Source: Rubrivivax sp.
GTDB lineage: Bacteria; Pseudomonadota; Gammaproteobacteria; Burkholderiales; Burkholderiaceae_C
Assembly (NCBI GenBank): GCA_024641965.1
Contig: JAHECC010000011.1
Coordinates: 1 to 45,775, forward strand
Direction of reading: 5' to 3'
Length of the DNA: 45,775 nucleotides
Shown here in pieces: positions 261 through 19,095 of this stretch (position 1 is its first letter; every line of letters begins with the position of its first letter). The notes under the pieces are model-generated. The model did no database searches and was not told where the DNA came from. It was given only the letters and a program-made list of their open reading frames with translations. The position numbers were made by a program, and so were the translations under genes.

Positions 261-590
261 TCAGTAGCCGCCCTTGCCCAGGGGCTGCGGCAGCCCGGCG
301 ACTTTGGCCGCCTGCTTGGCCGGGCCCATCGGGAACAGGTCGTACAAGGCCTTGCTGTCCACGCCGTCGCGGATCTCGGCCATGCCCTTGAGCAGGTTGC
401 GGAAGTTCGGGGTGTGGCCGTGTTCGCGGTACTGCTCGCGCTGGAAGTGGATGACCTCCCAGTGCGCCGGCGTCAGCGTGATGCCTTCGGCCGCGGCGAT
501 GACCTCGACCACCTCATCGCCGTAGTCGGGCTCGAGCAGGAAGCCCTGCTCGTCGCACTCCAATTCCACGCCGTTCACGCTGTAGCTCAT
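261..590 (-). CDS. DsrC/TusE-family protein lacking both C-terminal cysteines (RspA-like)
   Basis: DsrC-like throughout (LTPAHWEVIHF, ALYDLFPMGPAKQAAKVAGLPQPLGKGGY); CysB position is Ala and the CysA region has no Cys. Confidence 0.9.
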   Translation of the reverse strand: MSYSVNGVELECDEQGFLLEPDYGDEVVEVIAAAEGITLTPAHWEVIHFQREQYREHGHTPNFRNLLKGMAEIRDGVDSKALYDLFPMGPAKQAAKVAGLPQPLGKGGY

Positions 591-620
591 GCCAGGATCT
601 CCATTTCAACCGTCAAGGAT

Positions 621-1241
621 TCAGGCGCCGACGGCGGCCGCCGACTTGTGCGGCACGAACAGCCCGCAGCCCAGAGCGCGATGCGGCCCCAGCCCCAGCC
701 GCAGCAGCGTCAGCGAGTCGGTCGGGCTCAGCTGGTGCAGCATCAGGCTGAATCCGCTCAGCACCCCGGCGGCAGACTGCCGCTGCTGGCGCTTGCCGCA
801 CACCGCGAACGCACGGATGCCCAAGCGCGCCAGTTCGTCATGCACCGTGACCATGAACGCCGTCTCGTCGTCGCCTTCGGCGGCAACGAAGGTCGCATAC
901 AGCGTCGCGTATGGCACCAGCTCGTGGGGCCGGGCATCGCCGAGCCGCAAGTCGCTGCCGGCCACGGCCAACGTGCAGCCACCCAGCGGCGCCAGCGCCG
1001 GGACGCGCGACTGCGGCACCCGCAGCAGCAACCTGGCGCGGCGCGACAGCCAACCTTGCGGCTCGCTGCCGGGCACCAGCTTGATGCCGTGCACCCCGGC
1101 CGTCGGATGGCCTCGCAGCCACGGCAGCTGTGCGTCCAGCGCGTCGGCCAGCGCCTGCGCATGGTCGCGCGGCAGGCTGCGGCCGTCGATCGCAAATGCC
1201 ACGTCGACGGCGGCTTCATCCGGCAACGCCTGCAGCGTCAC
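621..1241 (-). CDS. Orphan Cas6/Cmx6-like RAMP-fold protein (type I-MYXAN Cas6 family)
   Basis: LSRRARLLLRVP, AVCGKRQ, SGFSLMLHQLSPTDSL and C-terminal glycine-rich loop GLGPHRALGCGLFVPHK (G-x-G-x5-G-x-G). GTG at 1241 overlaps the upstream stop (GTGA); ORF-track start is 1265. Confidence 0.75.
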   Translation of the reverse strand: MTLQALPDEAAVDVAFAIDGRSLPRDHAQALADALDAQLPWLRGHPTAGVHGIKLVPGSEPQGWLSRRARLLLRVPQSRVPALAPLGGCTLAVAGSDLRLGDARPHELVPYATLYATFVAAEGDDETAFMVTVHDELARLGIRAFAVCGKRQQRQSAAGVLSGFSLMLHQLSPTDSLTLLRLGLGPHRALGCGLFVPHKSAAAVGA

Positions 1242-1453
1242 GCCGACTCCTGCGCCCGGGCCCACTTGACCAGTGCCTCACCCCAGGCGGCGGCCGTCAG
1301 CGGGTCGATGTCGAAGACCGTGAAGCGACTGTGCTCGCGTATGCGCGTGCGCAGCAGGCTCATACCGCCGCTTTCCAGGTCGTGCTGCTGCAATTCGATC
1401 TCCTGCCCGCCCAGTGGCGCGCGCAGTTTCAGCAAGGGTGTGATGCGGTTCAT
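1238..1453 (-). CDS. Small conserved hypothetical protein (71 aa from ATG 1453)
   Basis: ORF 1238-1561; internal Met MNRITPLLKLRAPLGGQEIELQQ... chosen; GTGA coupling to the Cas6-like gene. Confidence 0.6.
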   Translation of the reverse strand: MNRITPLLKLRAPLGGQEIELQQHDLESGGMSLLRTRIREHSRFTVFDIDPLTAAAWGEALVKWARAQESA

Positions 1454-1579
1454 CAATCGGCTTGTCGCGCGTCGAAGCGGCACTTTGCAACCTGCGCTAT
1501 TGAGCGCGACCGCCGCCGCAGGGTCCATAGCCGTGACGGGGGGGGCGAGGCCTACTCCCAATGGGTAGGTCGCGCACCC

Positions 1580-1592
1580 CCCTATTTGGTCT
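1580..1592 (+). promoter_or_regulatory. CCTATTTGGTCTA motif upstream of dsrA, shared with the two-component/CMD-Rieske promoter
   Basis: 11/13 identical to CCCATTTGGGCTA at 16910-16922; lies in the divergent dsrA upstream region. Confidence 0.4.
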
Positions 1593-1728
1593 ATCCACGG
1601 CTAATCAACCGGAGTGATGGCGCGCGCCGCGGCCGGGGTCGAAGATTCGCCATCCGGCTTGCTGTCTTGGCAGGACCGAGGCATGCAAGCAGCCAGCGGT
1701 CACCGCCGCCGCGACAAGGAGACAACCG

Positions 1729-3030
1729 ATGGCCAAGAAGCCCCACGACACGCCGTTGCTCGACCAGCTCGAGAGCGGCCCCTGGCCCAGCTTCGTCACC
1801 GGGCTGAAGCGCCTGGCGCAGGACAGCGACTATGTCGTCGACCTGCTGGGCACGCTCGAGACCTCGTACCGCACGAAGAAGGGCTACTGGAAAGGCGGCA
1901 CCGTCGGCGTGTTCGGCTACGGCGGCGGGGTCATCCCGCGCTTCACCGAGCTGAAGAACGAGGACGGCACCCCCGTCTATCCGGACGCCGCCGAGCTGCA
2001 CACGCTGCGCGTGCAGCCGCCGCCGGGCATGCACTACAACACCGACGTGCTGCGCAAGATGTGCGACATCTGGGAAAAGCACGGCACCGGCCTGATCGCC
2101 TTCCATGGCCAGAGCGGCGACATCATGTTCCAGGGCGCCAAGACCGACAAGGTGCAGGCCGCCTTCGACGACCTGAACGAACTCGGCTTCGACCTCGGCG
2201 GCGCCGGCCCGGCGGTACGCACCTCGATGAGCTGCGTCGGTGCGGCGCGCTGCGAGCAGAGCTGCTTCGACGAAGGGCGCGCGCACCGCCAGGTGATCAA
2301 TTCCTTCACCGACGACATTCACCGCCCCGCACTGCCCTACAAGTTCAAGTTCAAGTTCAGCGGCTGCAGCAACGACTGCATGAACTCGATCCAGCGCGCC
2401 GACATGGCGGTGATCGGCACCTGGCGCGACAACATGCGCAGCGACGAAGCCATGGCGCGCAAGTGGTTCGACAAGCACGGCATGACCGAACTGGTCAACG
2501 ACGTGGTCTCGCGCTGCCCGACCAAGGCCATCATGCTGAAGGAAGTCAAGGAGCTGCGCACCGGCGAGCACCTGACGACGGTGAAGGTCAGCGACACACA
2601 GGCGCTGGAGATCGACAACAAGAACTGCGTGCGCTGCATGCACTGCGTCAACGTCATGACCGGCGCGTTGGCCCACGGCACCGACACCGGCGCGACGATC
2701 CTGATCGGCGGCAAGCGCACGCTGAAGATCGGCGACCTGATGGGCACCGTGATCGTGCCCTTCATGCCGCTGAAGACCGACGAGGACTACGACGCCCTGG
2801 TCGAGCTGGGCCAGAAGGTGATCGACTTCTTCGCCGAGAACGCGCTCGAGCACGAGCGCACCGGCGAAATGATCGAGCGCATCGGCCTGGTCAACTTCCT
2901 CGAGGGCATCGGCGTCGAGATCGACCCGAACATGGTCGCCACGCCGCGCACCAACCCCTACGTGCGCACCGACGGCTGGGACGACGAAGTGGCGAAGATC
3001 AACGCGCGCAAGCAGCAACAGCCGGCCTGA
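1729..3030 (+). CDS. dsrA: Dissimilatory sulfite reductase alpha subunit (reverse type)
   Basis: 433 aa; siroheme/4Fe-4S motifs (CVGAARCEQSC, FKFSGCSNDC) and ferredoxin domain NCVRCMHCVNVM; followed by dsrB. Confidence 0.97.
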   Translation: MAKKPHDTPLLDQLESGPWPSFVTGLKRLAQDSDYVVDLLGTLETSYRTKKGYWKGGTVGVFGYGGGVIPRFTELKNEDGTPVYPDAAELHTLRVQPPPGMHYNTDVLRKMCDIWEKHGTGLIAFHGQSGDIMFQGAKTDKVQAAFDDLNELGFDLGGAGPAVRTSMSCVGAARCEQSCFDEGRAHRQVINSFTDDIHRPALPYKFKFKFSGCSNDCMNSIQRADMAVIGTWRDNMRSDEAMARKWFDKHGMTELVNDVVSRCPTKAIMLKEVKELRTGEHLTTVKVSDTQALEIDNKNCVRCMHCVNVMTGALAHGTDTGATILIGGKRTLKIGDLMGTVIVPFMPLKTDEDYDALVELGQKVIDFFAENALEHERTGEMIERIGLVNFLEGIGVEIDPNMVATPRTNPYVRTDGWDDEVAKINARKQQQPA

Positions 3031-5233: not shown

Positions 5234-5566
5234 ATGAGCATCGAAGTCAACGGCACGACCTACGAGACCGACGAGGAAGGCTACCTCGTCAACCTGGCCG
5301 ACTGGACGCAGGAGATCGGCGAGCACATCGCCAAGGAAGAGAACCTGGAGATGAGCTCCAGCCACTGGGAAGTCGTCAACTTCCTGCGCGACTACTACAA
5401 CGAGTACCAGATCGCCCCAGCGGTGCGCGTGCTGACCAAGGCCATCGGCAAGCAGCTCGGACCGGACAAGGGCAACAGCAAGTACCTGTACGAGCTGTTC
5501 CCCTACGGCCCGGCCAAGCAGGCCTGCAAGATCGCCGGCCTGCCCAAGCCCACCGGCTGCGTCTGA
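5234..5566 (+). CDS. dsrC: DsrC sulfur carrier protein
   Basis: C-terminus KQACKIAGLPKPTGCV with the two redox Cys separated by 10 residues. Confidence 0.97.
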   Translation: MSIEVNGTTYETDEEGYLVNLADWTQEIGEHIAKEENLEMSSSHWEVVNFLRDYYNEYQIAPAVRVLTKAIGKQLGPDKGNSKYLYELFPYGPAKQACKIAGLPKPTGCV

Positions 5567-13646: not shown

Positions 13647-14006
13647 ATGAACGTCGTGCCGACCATGACAAGGACGCTGCGCGTCGCCGGCCGTGAGGTC
13701 GAGACCGACGCCGAAGGCTACTTGCGCCACCTGGACGACTGGTCGGAAGACTTCGCCCGGGCCGAGGCGCAGCGCGAGGGCCTGACGCTGAGCGACGAAC
13801 ACTGGCAGGTGATCCGCTTCCTGCGTGAGTACTTCCACGAACATCGCGTGCAGCCGCAGGTGCGCGTGATGATCCGGCACTTCGCGCAGGCCTGGGGGCC
13901 ACAGCGTGGCAACAACCACCACCTGCACGAACTGTTCCCGGTCGGCGGGCCGCAGAAGCAGGGCAATCGCTTGGCCGGCCTGCTGCGCACCAAGGGCGAG
14001 CACTGA
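13647..14006 (+). CDS. DsrC-family protein lacking both conserved cysteines
   Basis: LSDEHWQVIRFLREYFHEHRVQPQVRVMIRHF...LHELFPVGGPQKQGNRLAGLLRTKGEH; no Cys in the protein; start could be 13665. Confidence 0.88.
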   Translation: MNVVPTMTRTLRVAGREVETDAEGYLRHLDDWSEDFARAEAQREGLTLSDEHWQVIRFLREYFHEHRVQPQVRVMIRHFAQAWGPQRGNNHHLHELFPVGGPQKQGNRLAGLLRTKGEH

Positions 14007-14051: not shown

Positions 14052-14891
14052 ATGAAGTCCGATCAAGACTTTCTGCGCAGCCTAATGCGCGACAGCGACT
14101 GCACGCGCCAAGGTGCGGGCACCGTGCACCTGGTCGGCGCCGGCCCCGGTGACCCCGAACTGCTGACGCTGCGCGCGCTGCGCCTGCTCGCCCGGGCCGA
14201 TGCGATCGTCTACGACCACCTGGTGTCGCCGCAGGTGCTCGACTTCGTCTCGCCCGAGGCCGAGCGGATCTACGCCGGCAAGCAGCGCAACCGGCACAGC
14301 ATGCCGCAGCACGACATCAACCTGCTGCTGGTGCGGTTGGCGCGCCAAGGCAAGCATGTCGTGCGACTGAAGGGCGGCGACCCCTTCGTCTTCGGCCGCG
14401 GCGGCGAGGAAATGCAGGCGCTGGCCCAACACGGCGTGCCCTTCGAGGTGGTGCCCGGCATCACCGCCGCCTGCGGCGTGTCGTGTTACGCCGGCATCCC
14501 GCTGACGCACCGCGACCATGCGCAGTCCTGCCTGTTCGTCACCGGCCACCTGAAGGATGGCAGCTGCGACCTCGACTGGCCAGCGCTGGCGCGGCCGCGG
14601 CAGACGGTGGTGATCTACATGGGCTTGAGCGCGCTGGACGAGATCTGCGCGCAGCTGAAGGCGCACGGCGTGGCTGCCGACATGCCGGCGGCCGCGGTGC
14701 AGCAGGGCACGACCGCGCAGCATCGCGTCGTCACCGGCACGCTCGACACGCTGCCGCAGCGGGTGGCCGGACTGAAGTCGCCGAGCCTGATCATCGTCGG
14801 CGAGGTCGTGCGACTGCACGACACGCTGGCCTGGTTCGAGCCGCCGGCTGCCGAGGTGGACGCGCCGCTGGAGCTGGCGCTCAGCGCGTAG
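14052..14891 (+). CDS. cobA: Uroporphyrinogen-III C-methyltransferase (siroheme synthesis)
   Basis: [40 protein letters not shown]. Confidence 0.93.
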
Positions 14892-15576
14892 GCTTGGCGC
14901 TCTCGGCGCTGCGCGCGGCGCCGGCCGGCGTGCTGCGGAACTCCACCGCGAACACCGCCGCCTCGACGCGCGAGCTGAGGTTCAGCTTCGACAGGATATG
15001 GCGCACGTGCAGCTTCACCGTGTCGTGGCTGATGTCGAGCGCACGCGCGATGGTCTTGTTGCTTTCACCGCGCGACAGATGCTCGAGGATCTGCCGCTCG
15101 CGCTCGGTCAGGGATTCGAACTGGCTGCTGCGCGTGTCGCCCTTGGCACCGGACTGCAGCATCTGCGCCAGCTTCAGCGTCATCGCCGGCGCCACCACCA
15201 ACTCGCCCCGCGCAGCGCGGCCGATCGCGCCGATGACCTCGTCGGGCTCCATGTCCTTGAGCAGATAACCGCGCACGCCGGCGCGCAAGGCCGCCGCCAT
15301 GTCCTCCTCGGCGTCGCTCATCGTCAGGATGACGATCGGCGTGTCGATGCCCTCCACGCGCAGCCGCCGGGCCAGCGTCAGGCCGTCGGTGCTCGGCATG
15401 CGCAGGTCCAGCACCAGCAGGTCGGGCCGGTGTTCGCGCAACAGAGCGGACACCGCGTCGGTGTCGCCGGTTGCGACCACCACCTGCATGCCGCCACGCC
15501 TCTCGAACAGTTCGGTCAGACCGTTGCGGCACAGCGCATGGTCGTCGACCAGGGCGACGCGCAGCGGCGCGTTCAC
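14881..15576 (-). CDS. NarL/LuxR-family response regulator
   Basis: REC domain ([26 protein letters not shown]) plus LuxR HTH; GTG at 15576 overlaps the kinase stop (GTGA); ORF track starts at 15627. Confidence 0.92.
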
Positions 15577-16778
15577 GGCGTCACGCTCCGCCCGCCTTCG
15601 CCGATGGGGATGCTCAGCCGCACACACGTGCCGCCCCCATCGCGCGCCTGAACTGCCAATGTGCCCCCCAAACGCTGCGCGCGCTCGCGCATGATGTCGA
15701 GGCCGAAATGCGCACCGTCCTCGGCAGGCTCGGCCCCGTGCAGGCCAGCCACCGAAATGCCGGCGCCGTCGTCCTCGACGACGACATGCAGGTCGCCGCC
15801 GACACGGTGGACCGCCACATGGGCCTGCCGCGCCCGCGAGTGCCTGGCCACGTTGGCCAGCGCCTCCTGCACGATGTGGAACACCTGCAGCTCCTGCTCC
15901 ACCGACAGGTGCAACGCTGCGGCACGACTGTCGACAACCAGCCGGATGCCATGGCGATCGAGGTAGCCGGCCTGCAGCCCGCGCAATGCATGCAGCAGGC
16001 CCTTCGGGTCCATGCGCGTGCGGAAGTGCGTCAGGATCTGACGCAGACTGGCGTGGGCGTCGCTGACGGCCTGACGCAGGTCGTCTTGGTACTTCAGCGC
16101 GCGCGCATCGTCGTGCGCGATCAGCGCATCGTGCAGCAGCGGCAGCCGCATCTTCATGTAGACGAGCGTCTGCGCCACCGCGTCGTGGACTTCGCCGGCG
16201 AGCATCTGCCGCTCGTGCAGCACCGCAGCGCGCAGTTGCTCACGCTCAAGCCGCGCGTGGTGCAGGGCCAGCCCCAGCAGCTCGCCCACGGGTCGCAGCA
16301 GCGCGGCGACTTCGGTTCGCGGCGGCGTGCCGCGCGCGTAGAACAGGTTGACGACGCCGAGCACCTGATCGCGATAGCGCAGCGGCACTGCCGTCACGCT
16401 GTCGAAGCCATGGCCGATGAACTCGCCTGCGTTGTGCTTCACGCAGAGGCGCAGGTCATCGGTCCACACGGCCGGCGCACCGGCCAGCGCCTGGCCGCAG
16501 ACACCGCAGTCGCGCTCGACCTCGCGCTCGCCGGCAAGCAGATCCTGATCCAGGCCGACGCTGCCCAGCAGCCGCATGTGCGTGCCGTCGTCGCTCAGTG
16601 TGCGCACTGCGCCGGCCTTCGCACCGGACAGGCGCAACAACGGCTCCAGAAAGCGCTGCAACAGGGCTTCGAGGTCGTCGCCAGCGGCCAGCCCGGCCGT
16701 CAGCTCGGCCAGGAGCTCGCCCACCGGCGGCGACGCGGCGGGCGGCATGGCAATGACAACGGGCGAGGAGACGTTCAT
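15573..16778 (-). CDS. Soluble GAF-domain sensor histidine kinase (NarX/HisKA_3 type)
   Basis: GAF region with CGVCGQALAG...LRLCVKHNAG, HisKA_3 EVHDAVAQTLVYMKM, HATPase; no obvious TM segment; start at MNVSSP inferred. Confidence 0.9.
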   Translation of the reverse strand: MNVSSPVVIAMPPAASPPVGELLAELTAGLAAGDDLEALLQRFLEPLLRLSGAKAGAVRTLSDDGTHMRLLGSVGLDQDLLAGEREVERDCGVCGQALAGAPAVWTDDLRLCVKHNAGEFIGHGFDSVTAVPLRYRDQVLGVVNLFYARGTPPRTEVAALLRPVGELLGLALHHARLEREQLRAAVLHERQMLAGEVHDAVAQTLVYMKMRLPLLHDALIAHDDARALKYQDDLRQAVSDAHASLRQILTHFRTRMDPKGLLHALRGLQAGYLDRHGIRLVVDSRAAALHLSVEQELQVFHIVQEALANVARHSRARQAHVAVHRVGGDLHVVVEDDGAGISVAGLHGAEPAEDGAHFGLDIMRERAQRLGGTLAVQARDGGGTCVRLSIPIGEGGRSVTP

Positions 16779-16909
16779 TTTCAGTAGGCTGGGGCAATGC
16801 CGCTCAAGGCCGCATCGCCGTCGGGCAATTGCAAACCATAGCACCCCTCGACGCCATCGGTTGTGACCCGACGCCTGGCCGCCTGCTCGACCACCGCTGT
16901 CCTGGGCTA

Positions 16910-16922
16910 CCCATTTGGGCTA
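16910..16922 (+). promoter_or_regulatory. CCCATTTGGGCTA motif in the divergent kinase / CMD-Rieske intergenic region
   Basis: 11/13 match to the motif at 1580-1592; contains palindromic CCCA-TT-TGGG; overlaps heptamer TACCCAT and direct repeat GGGCTAC. Confidence 0.4.
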
Positions 16923-17067
16923 CGGGCCATTACCCTTCCCGGCTATAGACGCCCCGCGGCCCGCTTGCGCTAATCGCGGCACTGGATGATGCCTGCGCGA
17001 TCGCGCGCCGGCCGGACGCGGCGGCCCGCGCGACACACGAACTTCCCGCCGATTGGCTGAGCACACG

Positions 17068-17697
17068 ATGAGCGACGCCCTCAACTACCTGGCCAAGGCC
17101 CGCCCGGACGCGGTCGGCCACTACTTCGCCTTCCTGAAGGCCTGCGGCACGCGGCTGGACCCGAAGACGCGCAACCTGATCTCGGTGATCACCAAGGTGT
17201 ACGCGCAAACCGACCGAGGCTTCCGCCAGTACCTGAGACGCGCGCTGCGCGAGGGCTGCACGCCGGCCGAGGTGCTCGACGCGCTGCTGATGGCCTTTCC
17301 GGCACTTGGCCTGGCAAAGATCGTCTGGGCGGTGGACATCATCCTGTCGATGGACCTGCCGGAGTTCAGGCCGGAGGCGCTGCAGGGCGAAGACATGCAG
17401 TGGCACGACGTGATGGCCGCCGCCGATCTGCAGCCGGACGAAGTACAGCGCGTCGACTGCGACGGCCGCGGCTTGTTCGTCTACAGCGACGGCAGCGAGA
17501 TCCGCGTCTACGACAGCCGCTGCCCGCACCAGAGCACCAACATCCCGCACCTGGCATTGCAGGGCTCGACGCTGACCTGCCCGAAACATGAATGGGCCTT
17601 CGACGTGCGCAGCGGCCGGTGTATCGCAAAGGGCGACAGCCCGCTGCGATGCTGGCCCTGCAAGGTGGTCGACGGCCGCCTGTTGGCCCGCTGGTAG
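17068..17697 (+). CDS. Carboxymuconolactone decarboxylase-like domain fused to Rieske [2Fe-2S] domain
   Basis: N-terminal CMD-like helices (REGCTPAEVLDALLMAFPALG); C-terminal CPHQSTNIPHLALQGSTLTCPKH (CxH-x16-CxxH). Confidence 0.85.
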   Translation: MSDALNYLAKARPDAVGHYFAFLKACGTRLDPKTRNLISVITKVYAQTDRGFRQYLRRALREGCTPAEVLDALLMAFPALGLAKIVWAVDIILSMDLPEFRPEALQGEDMQWHDVMAAADLQPDEVQRVDCDGRGLFVYSDGSEIRVYDSRCPHQSTNIPHLALQGSTLTCPKHEWAFDVRSGRCIAKGDSPLRCWPCKVVDGRLLARW

Positions 17698-17745
17698 ACC
17701 GGCGCTCCGTATCAACACTCTATGCCCCAACCCTTGGAGACAAAC

Positions 17746-19095
17746 ATGTTCACTGCACGTCCTGCATTTGTGCAGCGCGCACCCGTCGCCGCGGCCCTGA
17801 GCCTGTTACTGGCCGCCGGTGCGGCGCAGGCTACCGATGGCTATTTCGCCAACGGCTACGGCATGACCAGCATCGGCATGGGCGGCGCCGCGGTGGCCGT
17901 CGCGCTCGAGCCCTTCGGCGGCGCCGTCAACCCCGGCGCGATGAGCTTCCTCGACAGCCAGTGGCAACTGGGCCTGAGCTGGTTCAGCCCCGACCGCAGC
18001 GCGTCGCGCACCGGCTCGGGCCCGGCCGGCATCGACGGCAGCGCCACCAGCGGCAGCACCAACTTCTTCATTCCCGAGTTCGGCGCCAATTGGCGCTACA
18101 GCCCGGAGCTTGCTTTCGGCCTGACGGTCTACGGCAACGGCGGCATGAACACCGATTACCCAGGCGGGCAGATACCGGCACAAAGCGCCTGCGCGCAGTT
18201 CAATCCGACACCGGGCCCGTACAACCTGATGTGCGGCAACGGCAGGCTCGGCGTCGACCTGATGCAACTGATGATCGCGCCCTACGTGTCGTGGCAGTTC
18301 ACGAAGGGCCATTCGATCGGCATCGCGCCGACCCTGGCCTACCAGCGCTTCAAGGCCGAGGGCCTGCAGGCCTTCGACAACCCGATGCTGTCCACCAGCA
18401 TGGGCAGCGTCACGAACAACGGCTACAGCGGTTCGTGGGGCGGCGGCGTGCGCATCGGCTACATGGGCCAGTTCACCGAGCAGTTCGCCGTCGGTGCAGC
18501 CTACGCGACGAAGATGTGGATGGGCGAGTTCGACGACTACAAGGGCCTGTTCGCGCAGGCCGGCGACTTCGACATTCCGTCGAATTTCACGCTCGGCGGC
18601 TCGTATCGGCCAACCCAGGAGTGGCTGCTCGCGCTGGACTTTCAGCGCATCTTCTACAGCGACTCGGTGGCGGTGAACAACCCGAGTTCGTTGATCGGCA
18701 ATTGCGCGCAGGGTCAGACCACAGCCTGCCTGGGGGGCAGCAACGGCGCCGGCTTCGGCTGGCGGGACATCAACGTGTGGAAGTTCGGCGTGCAATACAC
18801 GCTCAACGACCAGTGGACGCTGCGCGGCGGCTACAACTACACGCAAAACCCGATCCGGCCGCAGGACGTGACCTTCAACATCATCGCCCCGGGCGTGGTG
18901 CAGAACCAGTGGACGCTCGGAACCACCTGGAAGATCGACGCGGCGTCCCAGATCACTGGTGCGTTCATGTACGCGCAGAACAACTCGGTCACCGGCACCA
19001 GCCTGCTGGTCGGCTTCGGCGCGCCGCCGACGACGACCGAGACGATCTCGATGAAGGAATATCAACTGGGCCTCGCCTATACGCGACGCTTCTGA
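17746..19095 (+). CDS. OmpP1/FadL-family outer-membrane transporter
   Basis: Signal peptide ending AAQA, TDGYFANGYGMTSIGMGGAAVA N-terminus, beta-rich, terminal Phe (YTRRF). Confidence 0.9.
   Translation: MFTARPAFVQRAPVAAALSLLLAAGAAQATDGYFANGYGMTSIGMGGAAVAVALEPFGGAVNPGAMSFLDSQWQLGLSWFSPDRSASRTGSGPAGIDGSATSGSTNFFIPEFGANWRYSPELAFGLTVYGNGGMNTDYPGGQIPAQSACAQFNPTPGPYNLMCGNGRLGVDLMQLMIAPYVSWQFTKGHSIGIAPTLAYQRFKAEGLQAFDNPMLSTSMGSVTNNGYSGSWGGGVRIGYMGQFTEQFAVGAAYATKMWMGEFDDYKGLFAQAGDFDIPSNFTLGGSYRPTQEWLLALDFQRIFYSDSVAVNNPSSLIGNCAQGQTTACLGGSNGAGFGWRDINVWKFGVQYTLNDQWTLRGGYNYTQNPIRPQDVTFNIIAPGVVQNQWTLGTTWKIDAASQITGAFMYAQNNSVTGTSLLVGFGAPPTTTETISMKEYQLGLAYTRRF

Follow-up and report, generated by a model that had tools for sequence, protein, structure and literature searches.

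The reverse Dsr pathway is a main route of sulfur oxidation in nature and, to our knowledge, no transcription factor is known to control it directly. The response regulator NarL, which belongs to the best comparable two-component systems (NarX-NarL and NarQ-NarP), binds heptamers of the form TACYYMT. Its site consists of inverted heptamers separated by a 2-bp gap (the 7-2-7 arrangement, TACCCCTAAAGGGGTA; PMC4549865). Among regulators of sulfur oxidation, sHdrR and SoxR of Hyphomicrobium denitrificans are ArsR-type one-component repressors of the sHdr/Sox pathway (PMC12423496). Searches of open PMC papers returned no account of the two-component system described below, nor of any dsr regulator.

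The window (the whole 45,775-nucleotide stretch of DNA that was analysed) carries, in order, a dsr cluster, a NarL-like regulator gene, a kinase gene, a CMD-Rieske gene, a FadL-like gene and then sox genes. The dsr cluster opens with dsrA (1729) and closes with genes for a DsrC paralog and, at 14052-14891, a CobA-type methylase. The sox part begins with soxC and a cytochrome c gene at the place of SoxD; soxYZ and a SoxA-type gene come next, followed by another cytochrome c gene, at the place of SoxX, and by a gene at that of SoxB. The two-component system and its candidate targets are encoded as follows.

261..1265, minus strand: rest of the divergent candidate target operon (Cas6/Cmx6-family gene and DsrC-like gene)
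261-590, minus strand: DsrC-like gene (PF04358)
621-1265, minus strand: Cas6/Cmx6-family gene, full-length (TIGR02807, 139.3 bits, above the cut-off of 98.85)
1238..1452, minus strand: DUF6967 gene, first of the divergent candidate target operon (PF22295, E 4.4e-27)
1729..3030, plus strand: dsrA, candidate target gene (PF01077/PF03460; 82-88% identical to the DsrA of relatives)
14881..15576, minus strand: NarL-like response regulator, receiver and GerE domains (Pfam PF00072 and PF00196, above cut-off)
15573..16778, minus strand: soluble GAF-HisKA_3-HATPase sensor kinase (Pfam)
17068-17697, plus strand: CMD-Rieske gene (Pfam), in the candidate target operon adjoining the kinase
17722-19095, plus strand: FadL-like gene (Pfam), in the same candidate target operon as the CMD-Rieske gene

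The Cas6/Cmx6-family gene sits between the DUF6967 and DsrC-like genes, and a similar gene stands beside dsr in several relatives (loci L108, L109, L122 and L125), a member of a CRISPR RNA-processing family thus travelling with sulfur oxidation. DsrC/TusE-like genes at 13647-14006 and 261-590, one on each side of the cluster, are present besides the DsrC of the dsr operon (5234-5566).

Its receiver domain and GerE DNA-binding domain make the response regulator a member of the NarL/FixJ (LuxR-type) group. The closest solved structure is NarL itself (1a04, E 1e-43), and the 26-residue recognition region is close to that of NarL. The regulator nevertheless scores 211.9 bits against the NCBIfam NarL equivalog model, under the cut-off of 250, and is thus not classed as NarL. 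Among the NCBIfam models, NarQ and NarX are nearest to the kinase core. Their scores (153 bits of 553 and 121 of 578, respectively) derive from the C-terminal part only, so the protein is not classed as a nitrate sensor. A fold search with the kinase recovered mainly generic kinase cores and gave no clue to the ligand. Within the GAF domain, C91, C94 and C112 are invariant in alignments of 18 and of 41 orthologs, and these cysteines make it plausible that the kinase responds to redox state, a metal or sulfur. The GAF cysteines of NarX, a partly usable comparison limited to the readable loci, form a CxC motif with a later cysteine and not CGxCG. A fourth GAF cysteine (residue about 125) is present in most of 17 aligned family orthologs, and the window's kinase has F at this position.

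The initial annotation had singled out a 13-mer upstream of dsrA and one upstream of the CMD-Rieske gene, matching at 11 of 13 positions in the same orientation, as a shared regulatory motif. The sites in the two intergenic regions are listed here, together with their basis. Alignment A1, to which the list refers, holds 27 composite units from relatives, the two sites of the window having been left out.

1499..1504, minus strand: putative -10 box CTCAAT of the divergent (DUF6967) promoter, from the GAC-AAT spacing
1522..1527, minus strand: putative -35 box TGGACC of the same promoter, from the GAC-AAT spacing
1523..1568, minus strand: composite unit facing the DUF6967 gene (operator, degenerate half-site, CGGCTATGGAC); held-out profile and alignment with relatives
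1553..1567: dsr operator, TACTCCCAATGGGTA on the plus and TACCCATTGGGAGTA on the minus strand, between the divergent DUF6967 and dsrA genes
1581..1593, plus strand: 13-mer CCTATTTGGTCTA, spacer and GGTCTATC segment; a chance match, from alignment with relatives
1611..1625, plus strand: conserved block GGAGTGATGGCGCGC upstream of dsrA, a GAGTGATRGCGCG-like block being present in most of the 19 dsr genomes
16908..16922, plus strand: operator TACCCATTTGGGCTA of the kinase/CMD-Rieske intergenic region, conserved upstream of the kinase of relatives
16931..16937, plus strand: second half-site TACCCTT adjoining the -35 box, ACCCGT being conserved in A1
16946..16951, plus strand: putative -35 box TAGACG of the CMD-Rieske promoter, from the GAC invariant in A1 and the spacing
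16969..16974, plus strand: putative -10 box GCTAAT of the CMD-Rieske promoter, from AAT at a fixed distance in 35 of 35 units

Both 13-mers are present, the second (CCCATTTGGGCTA) at 16910-16922 as described and the first one base to the right of 1580-1592, where it had been placed. Their pairing, however, is at chance level. Between the two intergenic regions, 7 same-orientation pairs of 13-mers with at least 11 matches were counted vs a shuffle mean of 3.9; at least one such pair occurred in 87% of the shuffles, and the probability of 7 or more was 0.21. A genome-wide scan for the 13-mer at up to 2 mismatches yielded 68 matches vs 133 for the reversed control and thus no enrichment. Footprinting of the aligned dsrA upstream regions placed the 13-mer on a variable spacer and GGTCTATCG and not on the operator, with relatives having CCCTTTCCGGTCTATCG, CCCAATCGGGTCTATCG and similar sequences, or nothing, at this position. 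The two copies do not occupy homologous places in the two promoters; the shared 13-mer is a coincidence and was rejected as a regulatory motif. It falls inside about 22 bp of additional sequence (two helical turns) that includes GGTCTATCG. About half of the relatives and the window (1570-1610) carry this addition between the dsr operator and the dsrA-side block, and it may be a duplicated promoter element.

With one of the two regions reversed, their similarity was significant (Smith-Waterman score 49, P=0.002), whereas in the same orientation it was not (P=0.29). The reversed alignment pairs TACCCATTGGGAGTA on the minus strand with TACCCATTTGGGCTA on the plus strand and extends through CGGCTATRGA. 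The true shared signal lies in opposite orientation, is larger than the 13-mer and consists of a 15-bp operator, a second half-site, a -35-like TAGAC and a -10-like AAT. Other elements pointed out earlier are part of it. The imperfect palindrome CCTACTCCCAATGGGTAGG was found at 1551-1569, and the heptamer TACCCAT occurs at 16908-16914 (plus strand) and at 1561-1567 (minus strand), the latter one base off the reported 1560-1566. TACYYMT was counted 9 times in the window vs 4.3 expected. The palindrome (1553-1567) and the site at 16908-16922 are members of a strongly conserved composite element, and A1 contains 14 invariant columns. Judged from the aligned units, the conserved arms are TACCC-N4/5-GGGTA and not spaced by N6 as in the NarL 7-2-7 site.

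A sequence-only profile of A1 was run on whole genomes, its E-values being rough. In the 4.4-Mb genome of the window, the best match was 16907-16952 on the plus strand (E 2.6e-11), followed by C68:7158-7202 on the minus strand, upstream of tusA and yeeE (E 2.7e-8), and by 1523-1568 on the minus strand, the weakest of the three (E 3.8e-4); beyond these, no match in this genome fell below E 0.2. All three adjoin sulfur genes or the two-component system itself. The tusA-dsrE2-yeeE class of site, absent from the training set, recurs in relatives, where the sites precede dsrA/DUF6967, soeABC and tusA-dsrE2-yeeE. Over 200 genomes of the family, matches at E<=0.004 were obtained only in the 19 dsr genomes, some of these matches being training data; none of the 181 genomes without dsr had a site at this threshold (best 0.017).

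The dsr operator occupies the same place upstream of dsrA in all 19 dsr genomes of the family, and in 18 of them the composite unit faces away from dsrA. In the window it likewise points toward the divergent DUF6967 operon, although the two genes have a single operator between them. Of 28 genomes examined from other families of the order, 24 have a TAMYCC..GGGTA operator upstream of dsrA (P<0.05 vs shuffles). On the kinase side, relatives read away from the kinase have in most cases the operator and then ACCCGTnCCGGCTATAGACG, and among 80 named loci a site lay just upstream of the kinase on this strand in 55 (7 on training contigs and 48 new). The composite operator-promoter unit is thus found both at dsr and beside the kinase, one of the features by which a Dsr-linked two-component system is defined here. 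The kinase-side site is missing in about a third of the kinase loci, mainly Rhodocyclaceae-, Sulfuricella- and Gallionella-like, and in 7 of the 19 family genomes, though most of the latter have the dsrA site.

The units also share a promoter-like spacing. GAC is invariant in A1. In all 35 units compared, which come from promoters of dsr, soe and tusA, AAT stands 21-22 nt after GAC and almost nowhere else. This spacing fits a predicted sigma-70 promoter with a -35 box TAGACG, a -10 box NNNAAT and a spacer of 17-18. TATAGA was considered as the -10 box, which would have put the operator at about -42, and was dropped, as the fixed AAT fits TAGAC/NNNAAT better. Relative to the start sites predicted in this way, the operator centres of the window's two promoters lie at about -66 and -68. 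Toward dsrA, TANNAT comes after the GAGTGATRGCGCG-like block in 13 of the 19 genomes, and the block at 1611..1625 probably serves the dsrA promoter as its activator-dependent -35 region.

The distribution of the kinase follows that of dsr. Among the 200 family genomes, the 19 with a kinase ortholog (46-58% identity, one copy partial) are exactly those with DsrA and include the genome of the window; the other 181 have neither. Across 299 genomes of the order, the kinase was found in 56, DsrA in 64 and both in 55. The corresponding P values (5.6e-27 for identical 19-genome sets by chance; Fisher P 2.6e-49 for the order) overstate independence through shared ancestry; the pattern nonetheless holds across many genera and several families. 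In the sole kinase-only genome of the order, the match is 36% identical, lies in an 807-residue frame and is probably a NarX paralog, while 7 of the 9 DsrA-only genomes contain a weaker kinase homolog of uncertain orthology. The kinase-regulator pair adjoins dsr genes in most loci with enough flank, the 80 named loci included, and is often divergent from soeA, sat, hydrogenase or CMD-Rieske genes. Orthologs occur in the named strains Ideonella aquatica, Hydrogenophaga aromaticivorans, Piscinibacter defluvii and Sulfuricella sp. T08.

Because the recognition region of the linked regulator is close to that of NarL, a binder of TACYYMT heptamers, this regulator is the natural candidate for the sites. 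A genuine NarL, acting with NarX, could also bind them and place sulfur oxidation under nitrate control while the linked pair acts elsewhere; the arms TACCC/GGGTA are NarL-type, and the window's genome has a NarX-like kinase (663-aa frame, 34% identical) at G000:C176. This is very unlikely, as many family genomes without dsr possess NarX-like kinases and have no such sites, the arms stand closer than in the 7-2-7 site (PMC4549865), and the linked pair is confined to dsr genomes. We consider it just as improbable that the sites, though real, are bound by another, unlinked regulator common to dsr genomes. The tie between regulator and sites is one of association only, and other regulators do exist, among them the LysR genes that some genomes have near sat or soeA. 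LysR genes, however, lie near only some dsr loci, whereas the linked regulator is NarL-like, matching NarL-like sites, and the strongest class of site is in the divergent promoter of the kinase itself.

Chance, that is, short motif similarity in GC-rich DNA with no function, accounts for the 13-mer. As an explanation of everything observed it has a negligible probability, and for the composite sites it is refuted by the held-out scan, in which sites conserved across genera and families reached E-values of 1e-8 to 1e-11. A less remote alternative concerns the sign of control. The linked regulator might bind the same sites as a repressor released by sulfur compounds, in the manner of the ArsR-type sHdrR and SoxR of Hyphomicrobium (PMC12423496); known repressors of sulfur oxidation act in this way, and the sign is unreadable from sequence. 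We nevertheless hold repression to be unlikely, since operators centred upstream of the promoter (about -66) and weak -35 boxes fit activation better.

The reading we prefer, and consider likely, is that the NarL-like regulator (14881-15576) and the adjoining cysteine-GAF kinase form a pathway-specific regulator of cytoplasmic sulfur oxidation. The earlier proposal that this two-component system acts through NarL-like heptamer sites on both dsr and its own region, made on the strength of the 13-mer, is well supported at the level of comparative genomics by footprinting, the held-out genome scan and the exact co-occurrence of sensor kinase and DsrA. It appears largely right and larger than first put: dsr and the system's own region hold as candidate targets but make too narrow a set, to which tusA-dsrE2-yeeE and, in relatives, soeABC should be added. 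The observations cover the sites and their conservation, the genes behind them, and the fact that only genomes with dsr and the kinase have such sites; from these we infer that the regulator binds there, as well as its sign of control, the start sites and the kind of signal. With its cysteine-bearing GAF domain, the soluble kinase would sense a signal in the cytoplasm and would phosphorylate the regulator. The latter would then bind TACCC-N4/5-GGGTA operators, often with one extra base inside one arm, and a further TACCC half-site that adjoins a weak -35 box (TAGAC). It would thereby control sigma-70 promoters with predicted starts about 66-68 bp downstream of the operator centre. The position of the operators upstream of weak -35 boxes suggests that the regulator is probably an activator.

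In the window's genome, the predicted targets comprise the region between the divergent dsrA and DUF6967 genes, the CMD-Rieske promoter, which faces away from the kinase gene, and, on another contig, tusA-yeeE. TusA/DsrE2/YeeE function in sulfur delivery, Dsr in oxidation to sulfite and Soe in oxidation to sulfate; the targets, with Soe in relatives, would thus make up one pathway. The CMD-Rieske and FadL-like arrangement (17068-19095) recurs in L184 and L212, and in these loci, as in the window, the kinase-side promoter faces these genes instead of soeABC. The soeABC genes of the window's genome lie on contig C227 beside a LysR gene, and no such operator was found there. Its soeA (G000:C227:10968-13874, L275), 79% identical to that of a relative, is away from the dsr cluster and divergent from the LysR gene, without the operator, unlike in most relatives. 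More tentatively, it is possible that a dedicated, lineage-wide system monitors sulfur inside the cell, the invariant GAF cysteines responding for instance to sulfane sulfur or redox state, and switches on the complete cytoplasmic TusA/DsrE2-Dsr-Soe route as one regulon, by means of a NarL-type regulator that has evolved an operator spacing of its own.

These genomes point to a NarL-like two-component system that is conserved, dedicated to dsr and equipped with an operator of its own, and to a defined candidate regulon for sulfur oxidation. This result names a regulator, a likely operator and likely target genes for the Dsr pathway, with orthologs in named strains, and makes the question of how bacteria decide to run this pathway directly testable. 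The system resembles NarX-NarL and NarQ-NarP in the domain order and recognition region of its regulator, in its TACCC/GGGTA half-sites and in a kinase core nearest to NarQ/NarX. It differs from them in that the kinase is soluble and lacks the membrane nitrate-sensor part, the regulator scores below the NarL cut-off, the operator arms are closer (14-15 bp in all vs the 16-bp 7-2-7 site), and the pair is found with dsr and not with nitrate respiration. Pathway-specific control of sulfur-transfer and oxidation genes together is shared with sHdrR and SoxR (PMC12423496), whereas the system here is a two-component one for dsr. With RsrS-RsrR and RegB-RegA of Acidithiobacillus, it has in common the two-component control of inorganic sulfur oxidation; in the available parts of their descriptions, those systems are set apart as serving the tetrathionate and iron/sulfur pathways of Acidithiobacillus and not dsr (PMC5093147, PMC5506826).
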